Below are positions 2,413 through 5,915 of a DNA stretch of 64,000 nucleotides, one piece after another. How positions within the stretch are numbered: the first letter of the stretch is position 1; each line of letters starts with the position of its first letter. Position numbers and translations under genes: made by a program. The notes below the pieces were generated by a model. It saw only the letters and a program-made list of their open reading frames with translations. It did not search any database and was not told where the DNA came from. Source of the stretch: Aurantiacibacter xanthus (GTDB taxonomy: Bacteria > Pseudomonadota > Alphaproteobacteria > Sphingomonadales > Sphingomonadaceae); NCBI RefSeq assembly GCF_003584015.1, contig NZ_QXFM01000140.1, forward strand, positions 62,001 through 126,000. Direction: 5' to 3'.

Positions 2413-2724
2413 TCAGCGCTCGGGCTCGGCCTCGACTTCCTGCTCGATCCGTTTTTCGATCGGCTCCAGCCGCTCCATCACCTTACGGTTCTTGCGGCTG
2501 AGCAGATACTGCCACACGCCCCAGGCGTTGATGAGCAACAGGATGGCGTTCATCGCCGCAATCGGCATCGCACCCGATGTCAGTCCCGACACGATCCAGA
2601 TGATCGACACCGCGCAAAACAGGATGAAGGCATAGCCGGTAGCCCTTCGTCCGAGGTCGGCGGCAATCAGGCCTGCGGCGAGCATCGCGCCGATGGCCGC
2701 GATCCATTCAAGAGGTCCGTTCAT
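2413..2724 (-). CDS. Small integral membrane protein of unknown function
   Basis: 103 residues with about three to four hydrophobic segments (roughly 6-25, 31-48, 52-73) and a charged, helical C-terminal tail (KNRKVMERLEPIEKRIEQEVEAE). I do not recognise a characterised family; the pattern resembles small uncharacterised inner-membrane proteins. A TCACAT-type palindrome lies 53 bases upstream of its start, and two more of the same kind precede ribB. By inference the gene could share riboflavin-linked regulation and might be a transport accessory. No direct functional evidence is visible. Confidence 0.6.
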   Translation of the reverse strand: MNGPLEWIAAIGAMLAAGLIAADLGRRATGYAFILFCAVSIIWIVSGLTSGAMPIAAMNAILLLINAWGVWQYLLSRKNRKVMERLEPIEKRIEQEVEAEPER

Positions 2725-2776: not shown

Positions 2777-2792
2777 TCACATTACGATGTGA
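2777..2792. promoter_or_regulatory. TCACAT-N4-ATGTGA palindrome upstream of the small membrane-protein gene
   Basis: TCACATTACGATGTGA is a perfect inverted repeat of 6-bp half-sites with a 4-bp spacer. The same half-sites occur twice in front of the HTH-ribB gene at 4689-4733. It lies in the 238-bp region between ribH and the reverse-strand gene starting at 2724, where an operator for that gene would be expected. The rest of the region (2793-2962) holds nothing else recognisable. Confidence 0.5.
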
Positions 2793-2962: not shown

Positions 2963-3382
2963 CTACTGAAACGTCTCCTGCAATTCGAGCAACCGCATGG
3001 CCGCGACGGCCGCCTCGCCGCCCTTGTTCTTCTGCGCCGGATCGGCGCGCACCAGCGCCTGCTCCTCGTTCTCGACCGTGAGGATACCGTTGCCGATGGC
3101 CACCGCATCCATGGTCAGCGCCATGATCGCACGCGCGCTCTCGCCGGCCACGATTTCAAAGTGATAGGTCTCGCCCCGGATCACCACACCGATGGCGACG
3201 AAGCCATCATAGCGCCCGCTTTCGGCAGCAAGCGCAATCGCGCCGGGCACCTCGAGCGCGCCGGGCACGGTCAGCACATCGACGCTGTGCCCTGCCTCTT
3301 CCAGCGCGGCACGGGCGCCGGCGATCAGCAGATCGTTGAGGTGGTCGTAGAAACGGGCTTCGACGATAAGGAAACGGGCCAT
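2963..3382 (-). CDS. ribH: 6,7-dimethyl-8-ribityllumazine synthase
   Basis: 139 residues, a compact lumazine synthase. It condenses 5-amino-6-ribitylamino-uracil with 3,4-dihydroxy-2-butanone 4-phosphate, the penultimate step of riboflavin synthesis, and forms pentamers or icosahedra. Visible motifs: [13 protein letters not shown] for substrate binding and [14 protein letters not shown] with the catalytic histidine. The C-terminal helix carries [16 protein letters not shown]. The start lies 2 bases after the ribB stop, so ribB and ribH form a tight operon in which the upstream enzyme makes this enzyme's second substrate. The gene ends far from the next gene, which suggests the operon ends here. 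Confidence 0.95.
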
Positions 3383-3384
3383 GA

Positions 3385-4674
3385 TTATTCTTCTCCGCAG
3401 GCAATCGGGCGTTCCCCGACAATCGACAGGCCATAGCCATCGAGGCCGACCAGCGAATGCGAGGTGTTGGTAAGCAGGATCATGTCGCGCACGCCCAGTT
3501 CGGTGAGGATCTGCGCGCCGACGCCATAGTCGCGCTGCTCTTCCTCGCTTTCGCGCGGACGCCGTTCAAGCGCCCGGATCGCGCGCGAAACATAGTCGGC
3601 CGAGGGACGGTTGATCAGGACCACCACACCCGAGCCTTCTTCGCCGATGGCTCGCATGGCGCCTTCGAGCAACCGCGAGCGCTCGATATCGCGCGCGAAC
3701 ACGTCGTCGAAGATGGCGAACGCGTGCATCCGCACCAGCGTCGGCCTGGCGGGATCGATATGGCCTTTGACCAGCGCCAGGGTCTCGTCCTTCGTGGCCT
3801 TGTTCCAGAAGCTGATCGCGCGCCAGTCGTCGCCCCAGCGGCTGGAGAACCGCGCTTCGCCGCGGTTTTCGACAAGGTGATCGTTCTGGCGGCGGTAGGC
3901 GATCAGATCGCGGATCGTGCCGATCTTCAACCGGTGCTTGCGGGCAAAGGCGATCAACTGGTCGAAGCGGGCCATGGTCCCGTCCTCGTTCATGATCTCG
4001 CAGATCACGCCGCTCGGGTTGAGCCCGGCGAGCCGCGAGATATCGACCGCCGCCTCGGTATGCCCGGCGCGGACCAGCACGCCGCCCTCGCGCGCAACCA
4101 GCGGGAACACGTGACCGGGGGTGACGATGTCGTCCGGGCCTTTCGAGGCGTCAATCGCGACCGAAATGGTGCGCGCGCGGTCGGCGGCGCTGATCCCGGT
4201 GGTGACGCCCTCGCGCGCCTCAATGGCGACGGTGAAGGCGGTTTCGTGGCGGGTGCGGTTCTTGCGGCTCATCAGTTCGAGCCCCAGCGAGTCCACGCGG
4301 GTCTTGGACAGTGCGAGGCAGATCAGCCCGCGGCCATGGGTCGCCATGAAGTTGATCGCATCGGGCGTCGCCATCTGCGCGGGGATGATGAGGTCGCCCT
4401 CGTTCTCGCGGTCCTCGTCGTCAACGAGGATGAACATGCGCCCGTTGCGCGCTTCCTCGATCAGCTCCTCGATCCCGACCAGCACCGGGCTGTCGTCGTT
4501 TTCGGAGAGAAAGCGGTCGAGCTTGCCGAGCGTTTCGGCCGTCGGGTTCCAGCCCGGCTCGGTACAGTCGCGCAGGGTGTTGGCATGGAGGCCGGCAGCA
4601 CGGGCGAGCCCGGCGCGGGTCATCTTGCCCTCTCCAATAAGGGCCAGAACCTTGGCGAGAACCTGATCGGACAT
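3385..4674 (-). CDS. ribB: 3,4-dihydroxy-2-butanone 4-phosphate synthase with N-terminal HTH and degenerate GTP cyclohydrolase II-like domain
   Basis: 429 residues in three parts. Residues about 1-55 form a small helix-turn-helix, XRE-like domain ([18 protein letters not shown]). Residues about 60-265 are a complete DHBP synthase, with the acidic loop [10 protein letters not shown] near 84-93, [11 protein letters not shown] and [16 protein letters not shown]. It converts ribulose 5-phosphate to the four-carbon riboflavin precursor. Residues about 270-425 resemble GTP cyclohydrolase II but lack the C-x10-C-x-C zinc ligands ([12 protein letters not shown] replaces the cysteine segment) while keeping the LLTN and SIVGERP tail. 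That domain is therefore probably not a cyclohydrolase, and a separate RibA should exist elsewhere. The HTH suggests a bifunctional enzyme-regulator; two palindromes lie directly upstream. First gene of the ribBH operon. Confidence 0.9.
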
Positions 4675-4688
4675 AGACAGTTCCTAAA

Positions 4689-4704
4689 TCACATTTCAAT
4701 GTGA
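4689..4704. promoter_or_regulatory. Proximal palindromic operator of ribB (TCACATT-TC-AATGTGA)
   Basis: A perfect 7+2+7 inverted repeat located 15 bases upstream of the ribB start codon. A second copy with the same half-sites lies at 4719-4733 and a third at 2777-2792. The short leader (about 85 bases to the neighbouring gene) has no room for an FMN riboswitch, so control by a protein is more likely. The fused HTH of RibB itself is the obvious candidate, which is inference. Confidence 0.55.
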
Positions 4705-4718
4705 ACCCCATCTAGTGG

Positions 4719-4733
4719 TCACATTGAATGTGA
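4719..4733. promoter_or_regulatory. Distal palindromic operator of ribB (TCACATT-G-AATGTGA)
   Basis: A perfect 7+1+7 inverted repeat. Its centre is about 30 bp, near three helical turns, from the centre of the repeat at 4689-4704, so two dimers could bind the same DNA face. The one-base difference in spacer between the copies is unusual for a rigid dimer site and should be kept in mind. Confidence 0.55.
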
Positions 4734-4760: not shown

Positions 4761-5915
4761 TCAAGGACCGAATACGGCGTGGTCCAGCTCTGCCACACTG
4801 GTGACGCCGAGATAGGCGATGGTCCGTCGCAGCTCCTGCGCGAGCAGATCGATCGCGCGCGTCACGCCGGCTTCGCCACCAGCGGCAAGACCATAGAGCG
4901 TCGCCCGCCCGAGCAACACCCCCTTCGCACCCAGGGCCAGCGCCTTGACCACATCGCTGCCGCGCCGCACTCCGCTATCGAACCACACGTCGAGCCGGTC
5001 GCCCGCTGCCGCCAGCACGGCGGGCAGGGCATCGATGGCGGCAACCGAGTGATCGAGCGCCCGCGCACCGTGGTTGGAGACGACCACGCCGTCGATCCCG
5101 CGTCGCGCCGCCTCAAGTGCGTCATCGGGATGCAGCACGCCCTTCAGCACCATCTTGCCGCGCCACATCGCGCGCAGTTGCGCAATGCCGTCCCAGTCGA
5201 GATTGTCCTGCTTGAACTGTGCCCCCGGCTTGCCGCCCTTGCCAATCGAATGACGCAGATGCGGCGGCAGGTTCGCCTGCTGCGGCAACTTGCCCTCGCG
5301 CAAAACATACTGCCCGATCACACCAAGCAGCCAGCGCGGATGGGTCAGCACGTCAACCACATTCTGGCGATTGGGCTTGAACGGTATGCCGAAGCCGTTG
5401 TGAAACAGATACTCGCGGTTGGGCGGCACCGGCAGATCGAGCGTGACGAACAGCGTGTCGCATCCCGCATCCTGCGCACGGCGCACGACATCGAACGACA
5501 ACTCACGGTTCTCCCAGAGGTAAAGCTGGAACCACACACGCCCGGCTTCGACCGCGATCATCTCCAGATCGAGGGTGCTGGCGCTGGAGATCGTGAACGG
5601 AATGCCTGCTGCCCGTGCCGCCCGCGCCAGGGCAATATCGCCGTTGTAATGGATCAAGCCAGCGGCACCGGTCGGGCCGATGGCGAAGGGCAGGGCGCTC
5701 GGCTCACCCAGCAGTTCAGCCGAGAGGTCGACCCGCTCGACATTGCGCGCCACGCGCGGCACGAAGGTCAGCGCATCGAGCGCGGCGCGGTTGCGGTCCA
5801 TGCCGATCTCGTCCTCAACGCCGCGTTCGAGATACTCCCAAACACCGCGCGGAAGGCGCCGCCTGGCCTTGCGGCGCAGATCGGCGATATTCCAGCAGGC
5901 CAGATCTGCCGACAT
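4761..5915 (-). CDS. FMN-dependent alpha-hydroxy acid dehydrogenase (mandelate/lactate dehydrogenase type)
   Basis: 384 residues, a full-length member of the flavocytochrome b2/glycolate oxidase family. It oxidises an alpha-hydroxy acid to the keto acid using FMN, with electrons passing to the respiratory chain in membrane-bound members. Visible: the IGPTGAAGLIHYNGD FMN segment, LWFQLY-like VWFQLYLW, the catalytic His/Arg region SNHGARALDH near residues 277-286, and the phosphate loop DSGVRRGSDVVKALALGA followed by LLGRATLYGLA. The overall sequence is closer to bacterial (S)-mandelate dehydrogenase than to LldD in my reading. It is downstream of an SDR with an 8-base gap, so the two are probably co-transcribed. 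The substrate cannot be fixed from sequence. Confidence 0.85.
   Translation of the reverse strand: MSADLACWNIADLRRKARRRLPRGVWEYLERGVEDEIGMDRNRAALDALTFVPRVARNVERVDLSAELLGEPSALPFAIGPTGAAGLIHYNGDIALARAARAAGIPFTISSASTLDLEMIAVEAGRVWFQLYLWENRELSFDVVRRAQDAGCDTLFVTLDLPVPPNREYLFHNGFGIPFKPNRQNVVDVLTHPRWLLGVIGQYVLREGKLPQQANLPPHLRHSIGKGGKPGAQFKQDNLDWDGIAQLRAMWRGKMVLKGVLHPDDALEAARRGIDGVVVSNHGARALDHSVAAIDALPAVLAAAGDRLDVWFDSGVRRGSDVVKALALGAKGVLLGRATLYGLAAGGEAGVTRAIDLLAQELRRTIAYLGVTSVAELDHAVFGP

Follow-up and report, generated by a model that had tools for sequence, protein, structure and literature searches.

An N-terminal HTH domain and matching palindromes in the promoter region of a ribBX gene suggest an enzyme that regulates its own operon

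Can an enzyme of riboflavin synthesis also be the regulator of its own gene? This question is raised by a locus in the 64-kb stretch of DNA analyzed here (the window), in which the gene for a DHBP synthase (RibB) begins with a predicted helix-turn-helix (HTH) domain and is preceded by palindromic sequences. The features to which we refer are the following.

2413..2724, minus strand: orf103, encoding a small hydrophobic protein, downstream of ribH (sub-threshold Pfam matches only)
2777..2792: third putative operator, with an N4 spacer, upstream of orf103
2963..3382, minus strand: ribH, lumazine synthase (PF00885, E 2e-41), 2 bp behind ribBX
3385-4674, minus strand: HTH-ribBX gene, an ORF of 429 aa with an N-terminal HTH, RibB and a degenerate GTP cyclohydrolase II (GCHII)
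3409..3858, minus strand: degenerate GCHII ("X") domain, residues 273-422 (PF00925, E 4.2e-33)
3895..4470, minus strand: DHBP synthase (RibB) domain, residues 69-260 (PF00926, E 1.1e-84)
4492..4674, minus strand: XRE/Cro-like HTH domain, residues 1-61 (alignment, AlphaFold, Foldseek)
4689..4704: putative proximal operator TCACATTTCAATGTGA, TCACAT-N4-ATGTGA, lying 15-30 bp before the start codon (counted from its first base)
4719..4733: putative distal operator TCACATTGAATGTGA, TCACAT-N3-ATGTGA, ~30 bp upstream of the proximal operator and 45 bp before the ATG
4761-5915: FMN-dependent dehydrogenase gene, ending 86 bp upstream of HTH-ribBX

A preliminary description of this DNA had placed an HTH at the N-terminus of the DHBP synthase, and our analysis agrees: residues 1-60 are XRE/Cro-like, at a level below the Pfam cut-off. 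A Pfam scan of the whole window protein at E<=1 returned PF00926 and PF00925 and no HTH model, and the window HTH stayed under the curated Pfam HTH cut-off, giving sub-threshold matches only. When HTH_3 was compared with 35 HTH segments (31 fused, 4 stand-alone), 27 matched at E<=1, the best at 5e-5. AlphaFold modelled the HTH alone with a pLDDT of 86, and Foldseek matched this model mostly to lambda-repressor-like proteins (HipB, P22 c2, SinR, C-proteins) with a probability of ~0.9 and E values of only 0.2-1, the top match being the MuB N-terminal domain. DSSP assigned no regular helix to residues 27-45 of the model, the expected place of the recognition helix. Within this presumed helix, N32 and R35 are invariant in 53 HTH-RibBX, and A24, G28, W42-N43-P44 and T48 are invariant across 38 fused and stand-alone HTH members. 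The full-length AlphaFold model of HTH-RibBX (12 sequences) had a pLDDT of 54 and was set aside.

The protein had been read as an HTH followed by RibB; both parts are present, but a degenerate GCHII domain also follows RibB. The RAGHTE motif and the second RibB motif are kept in the window protein, and D85, D86, the D88-D94 block and R202-E207 are invariant in all 53 aligned HTH-RibBX. Judged by the residues that we take to be catalytic, the RibB domain of HTH-RibBX looks intact. By contrast, alignment of the X domain to the RibBA structure 4i14 showed that the GCHII cysteine positions hold other residues, indicating that the window protein is a RibBX. Passages of PMC10012899 describe the cysteines replaced in this way as zinc binders. 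From their spacing, we infer that ribBX and ribH form one operon.

The two perfect TCACAT/ATGTGA palindromes reported near the ribBX start were recovered at 4689-4704 and 4719-4733, with perfect half-sites in both TCACATTTCAATGTGA and TCACATTGAATGTGA, and the third palindrome at 2777-2792 is additional to those described earlier. With two mismatches allowed, ~1.4 such patterns are expected by chance per 64 kb. In the whole 4.38-Mb window genome, the exact pattern TCACATN{2,6}ATGTGA occurs at five sites, three of them within 2 kb at the ribBX locus, and the pattern read backwards does not occur at all. Across 99 related genomes, we found 50 exact N4 sites, spread over 45 genomes, and a single occurrence of the reversed N4 pattern, in one genome. 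The ribBX locus accounts for 46 of the 50 sites, 41 being no more than 100 bp from an HTH-ribBX start and five within 3 kb downstream. Given this concentration at one locus, we rejected a reading of the TCACAT site as the box of a general regulator. The four sites elsewhere belong to G016, G055, G086 and G098. The site in G016 (L160, G016:C12:158004) precedes, by 38 bp, a gene that by eye encodes an OmpA-like lipoprotein, and is the sole exact N4 site in 60 family genomes outside ribBX and the G055 prophage region.

The product of orf103, upstream of which the third site lies, is probably a membrane protein, its hydrophobicity having been judged by eye. Homologues were found in 16 of the 95 loci searched, and at nine of these 16 a site with 0-2 mismatches lies within 200 bp upstream of orf103. 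Likewise, four of the five exact sites downstream of ribBX precede an orf103 homologue (G000, G010, G020 and G037). These positions make orf103 a candidate second target of HTH-RibBX; its product is a candidate flavin transporter. In G032 (L157, ~4655-4670), an exact operator lies ~2.6 kb behind ribBX, near the position that orf103 occupies in close relatives; orf103 was not found at this locus.

To relate the site to the HTH, we compared ribBX genes with and without this domain at loci for which 80 of 589 relatives had been kept. A set of 90 genes was taken from 100 loci (L030-L090 left out, L078 kept; frames <300 codons and identical peptides dropped) and divided by a wider HTH rule. An N4 palindrome with at most two mismatches lay upstream of all 63 HTH-RibBX genes (48 exact, 10 with one mismatch and 5 with two) and of none of the 27 HTH-less genes, whose best palindromes had 4-6 mismatches. 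A set of 140 ribBX/ribBA genes, from 160 loci (L011-L090 and L156-L235; identical peptides and frames with <150 codons after the motif dropped), gave an N4 site within 250 bp in 64/64 genes with the HTH (49 exact) and in 0/76 without it, three of the 76 having a site-like sequence with three mismatches. In this set a regular expression had called 61 genes HTH-positive and 79 HTH-negative, and L184, L185 and L187, in which the HTH is present together with exact sites, were moved to the positive group on the basis of their N-termini. Degenerate copies missed by the motif search, such as L196, are absent from all of these sets. Thus, the expectation that promoters of HTH-RibB homologues share TCACAT-N4-ATGTGA was borne out (63/63), and sites before HTH-less ribB genes, which had been named as the finding that would speak against the proposal, were looked for and occurred in 0/27 and 0/76.

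Ten of the 27 HTH-less genes come from the family itself (L021, L022, L024 and L188-L194), and two of these, L188 and L189, are HTH-less ribBX paralogues in the window genus, both without the palindrome. On a quick maximum-likelihood tree the HTH label changes eight times, with at least four changes forced by well supported branches, indicating more than one joint gain or loss of HTH and palindrome. These results bear on whether a separate regulator might read the palindromes, the HTH serving some other purpose such as dimerisation or localisation. The two features could then simply both mark one lineage, but they change together on the tree, the paralogues L188 and L189 lack the site within the same genus, the clustering of 46/50 exact sites at one locus suits a local regulator, and a prophage HTH that stands alone, with no RibB, has the same type of site (see below). 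We consider a separate regulator unlikely. Rather, the association links the HTH to the site, and comparative genomics (63/63 versus 0/27) supports the self-regulation by the enzyme that had been suggested; the sign of this regulation is left either way, activation included. In terms of the enzyme-autorepressor concept, the same comparison shows an enzyme that includes a DNA-binding domain and whose gene has matching sites in its promoter region.

Relatives of the HTH that are not fused to an enzyme provide a further view of the site. We counted 12 stand-alone genes, one per group of near-copies (L249, L253, L255-L261, L263 and L238 were not recounted); weaker HTH matches (L270-L293), a Bacillus phage match and a Ketogulonicigenium plasmid match stand outside the 12, and 11 of the weaker or stand-alone loci were inspected separately only. 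Start codons of these genes and of the HTH-CoaBC genes were chosen by hand. A perfect N4 palindrome of five or more pairs starting between -40 and -20 was present in 7/12 stand-alone HTH genes versus 9/249 mechanical ORFs of the same loci (37/249 in the wider stretch from -75 to -8), and in these seven the first palindrome base lies 25-32 bp before the ATG. The other five genes have no palindrome at -40 to -20; among them are L254, with a TCACAT-like site (one mismatch), and L262, with a palindrome at -50. The recurrence of this position in stand-alone members of the HTH family suggests that the site is read by the HTH itself.

Two (pro)phage stand-alone HTH genes, in G055 and in viral contig L254, carry TCACAT-type sites. 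The 68-aa HTH protein of the G055 prophage (L248), which has an identical copy in an IMG/VR viral contig, is encoded near a divergent frame that, in our reading, resembles a phage repressor. Its gene is preceded by two TCACAT-like sites, each with one mismatch, at a distance of 31 bp; the one closer to the gene ends 13 bp before the ATG. Identity to this HTH is 41-52% in seven sampled members. The exact N4 site of G055 lies ~2.8 kb from the prophage HTH. A second TCACAT-like pair, likewise 31 bp apart, is found at 4873-4919 of L161, ~2.8 kb from the prophage HTH gene, and may be another operator of this prophage. The site in L254 reads TCCCAT-N4-ATGTGA. Other half-sites are seen in Pseudanabaena phage Pan3 and its copy in G059 (GCATAT-N4-ATATGC), in G070, contig L250 and G757 (CGCAT-N4-ATGCG, with L262 likewise but farther upstream) and in L251 (ATGCAC-N4-GTGCAT). 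By eye and in this small sample, the recognition helix goes with the half-site, NTLR/NSLR with TCACAT, DTTLR/DTVLR with CGCAT and NTLNG/NTLLG with GCATAT; L262 (STIRK with CGCAT) and L251 are exceptions. Searches of viral contigs matched one contig with the G055 HTH as query and 16 with an alignment, and found no relative with the Pan3 HTH alone. No N4 palindrome accompanies an Azospirillum plasmid HTH (38%). CoaBC (Dfp), too, is fused to a member of this HTH family in two of 29 genomes, which belong to another family of the order: L245 (G088) and, by eye, L246 (G467). Neither of the two genes has an N4 palindrome upstream, so HTH-CoaBC gives the palindrome rule no support.

We then considered where the site lies relative to the promoter. 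Alignment of 61 promoters on the site gave the consensus ATCACATTnnAATGTGAT, in which CACA (left arm) and TGT (right arm) are invariant, a result that anchoring the alignment on the site favours. CTTG is preferred at -7 to -4 of the site and TA directly behind it, and a weaker half-site, AATGTGAT, appears ~31 bp upstream of the proximal site, in the unanchored part of the alignment. The distance from site start to ATG is 28 bp in 32 promoters and 27-31 bp in 56; among these 56 proximal sites, 38 have TTG at -6 to -4, 39 have TA behind and 31 have both. SD-like words were found in 5/61 HTH-positive genes versus 45/79 in the set called HTH-negative (three of these 79 are HTH-positive). The operator probably fills the -35/-10 spacer, and, with the start codon ~28 bp from the operator start in the family consensus (TTGnnA - operator - TAnnnn), a leaderless mRNA is likely. 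This placement is that of the family consensus and not of the window species' own sequence: the proximal operator of the window gene has no preceding TTG, and a sigma-70 scan at this gene found no promoter.

In the family consensus, promoter elements and the arms of the operator overlap, so the HTH might be a mere relic of the fusion, with palindromes kept only for the promoter elements inside them. This is highly improbable, because the invariance of CACA and TGT in 61 promoters goes beyond what a promoter needs, the site before orf103 is kept in 9/16 loci having that gene, and the HTH retains N32 and R35 without exception. A different possibility is that HTH-RibBX activates its own gene, or combines repression at one operator with activation from the distal operator. 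The distal half-site does occupy an activator position, upstream of the consensus -35, and the fold matches of the HTH include C-proteins, some of which activate their own genes in restriction-modification systems. However, conservation is highest at the proximal site, which lies on the core promoter, and the site has a similar place in 7/12 stand-alone HTH genes; we therefore assign activation a low probability and favour repression.

How widely the HTH is distributed, and how the fusion may have arisen, was addressed by genome searches. The HTH was found in 330/397 Sphingomonadaceae genomes and in 77/96 genera, and among the matches listed nearly all, by eye, lie in frames of ribBX size. A search of 385 Alphaproteobacteria yielded matches with E below 1e-20 only in four genomes, all from the family of the window, where the matching frames have 418-438 codons; G168, a family genome in this search, gave no HTH match. 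One genus with HTH-ribBX members is Novosphingobium (L012, L017 and L018), and N. panipatense is listed among strong riboflavin producers in a passage of PMC13028884, a link at genus level. The preliminary description had seen no room for an FMN riboswitch before this gene, and an Rfam scan of the window gave no family at threshold, RF00050 included. With strict filters, the FMN riboswitch was found in 0/60 family genomes and five times in 39 non-family genomes, three of the five standing directly before plain ribB (G063, G075 and G091). As HTH-less family members are also without it under these filters, it does not follow that the HTH replaced a riboswitch.

In the neighbourhood count (the same 100 loci, frames <300 codons dropped; ribE detected by one C-terminal motif, so that misses are possible), 19/27 HTH-less ribBX genes stand 47-115 bp, measured to the NGR codon, behind ribE, whereas 7/63 HTH-positive genes stand behind ribE at a spacing of 274-458 bp and the remaining 56/63 have no ribE motif within 3 kb upstream. 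The 274-458 bp gap is room for a promoter, operators and the HTH. With most HTH-less ribBX close behind ribE, and HTH-positive ribBX farther from it or lacking a ribE motif nearby, the arrangement fits an insertion between the two genes; it is consistent with such an event and does not give the direction of each single one. The window genome contains two PF00926 genes. The second, RibBX-like one (L196, G000:C119:39435-40514) has lost the catalytic motif (reading DDDNPASTGD at this place), is without HTH and operator, adjoins an etfB-like gene (by eye) and is probably a dead paralogue.

On these comparisons, we think it probable, with good confidence, that HTH-RibBX serves both as an enzyme and as its own repressor, with a captured phage-type head. 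The RibB dimer would present two HTHs to the two half-sites, whose centres are 10 bp apart, one helical turn. Since the proximal operator sits on the core promoter of the family consensus, its binding would block RNA polymerase and limit ribBX-ribH expression; the distal site ~30 bp upstream would strengthen repression, and through the third site orf103 would be controlled in the same way. An effector, whether flavin, GTP or substrate, would be likely to act at the degenerate GCHII domain. As to origin, the promoter-operator-HTH stretch of a phage-type autorepressor may have entered between ribE and ribBX, with an in-frame fusion to the latter, the ribE/ribBX operon being split after the insertion. 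A bolder version, which we offer tentatively and regard as somewhat doubtful, is that the Sphingomonadaceae captured a phage autorepressor cassette and made of it a metabolite-sensing enzyme-repressor, with GCHII as the sensor, orf103 as a flavin transporter and the CoaBC head captured separately; since the same kind of head is found separately on CoaBC, cofactor enzymes would then have become self-regulating repeatedly by drawing on small phage HTHs. If autorepression by HTH-RibBX is true, it predicts control of vitamin B2 synthesis in many members of a family without an FMN riboswitch in 60 genomes, and provides a case in which an enzyme acquired self-regulation by taking up a phage-type head along with the operator of that head. 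It would also give the so far unexplained X domain a candidate role as a sensor, and the operator offers a testable sequence of 15-18 bp.

The preliminary description had likened the protein to RbkR, said to have been presented by Rodionova et al. in 2017, which is reportedly an archaeal HTH-riboflavin kinase controlling riboflavin genes. RbkR likewise joins a riboflavin-pathway enzyme to a DNA-binding domain, but it is an archaeal kinase, whereas the window enzyme is a bacterial DHBP synthase. The analogy is fair as a concept and shows no sign of homology: Pfam, by which alone a common origin was sought, found no riboflavin kinase domain in the window protein at E<=1. By its architecture, the window protein is a RibBX and not an RbkR. 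Enzyme and repressor are also combined in one polypeptide in PutA and NadR, and the effectors of BirA, PutA and NadR are known. In the part of PMC5343134 concerned with BirA, one polypeptide is described as catalyst and repressor in its pathway. These are other enzymes, with which the window protein would share the enzyme-regulator concept by analogy. The small phage and prophage HTH proteins belong to the same HTH family, in which 7/12 stand-alone genes show an N4 palindrome close to the ATG, but they stand alone, with no enzyme, and their half-sites vary (CGCAT, GCATAT, ATGCAC, TCACAT). Alphaproteobacterial regulators of riboflavin genes are described in PMC3518464, where the transcription factors wBmxR1 and wBmxR2 of Wolbachia bind the ribA promoter, but these are separate proteins, shared with type IV secretion genes. 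An HTH-RibB fusion appears in no title or abstract found in the open PMC literature, the scope of our search. Among the closest known systems is RibBX itself, RibB fused to an inactive GCHII-like domain (Brutinel et al. 2013, Nouwen et al. 2021, via PMC10012899), whose X domain, according to passages of the same source, has no GCHII activity and yet regulates RibB by a mechanism not known. The window protein has the same architecture of RibB and degenerate GCHII; to the RibBX of those passages, which mention no N-terminal HTH, it adds ~60 residues and its own putative operators.
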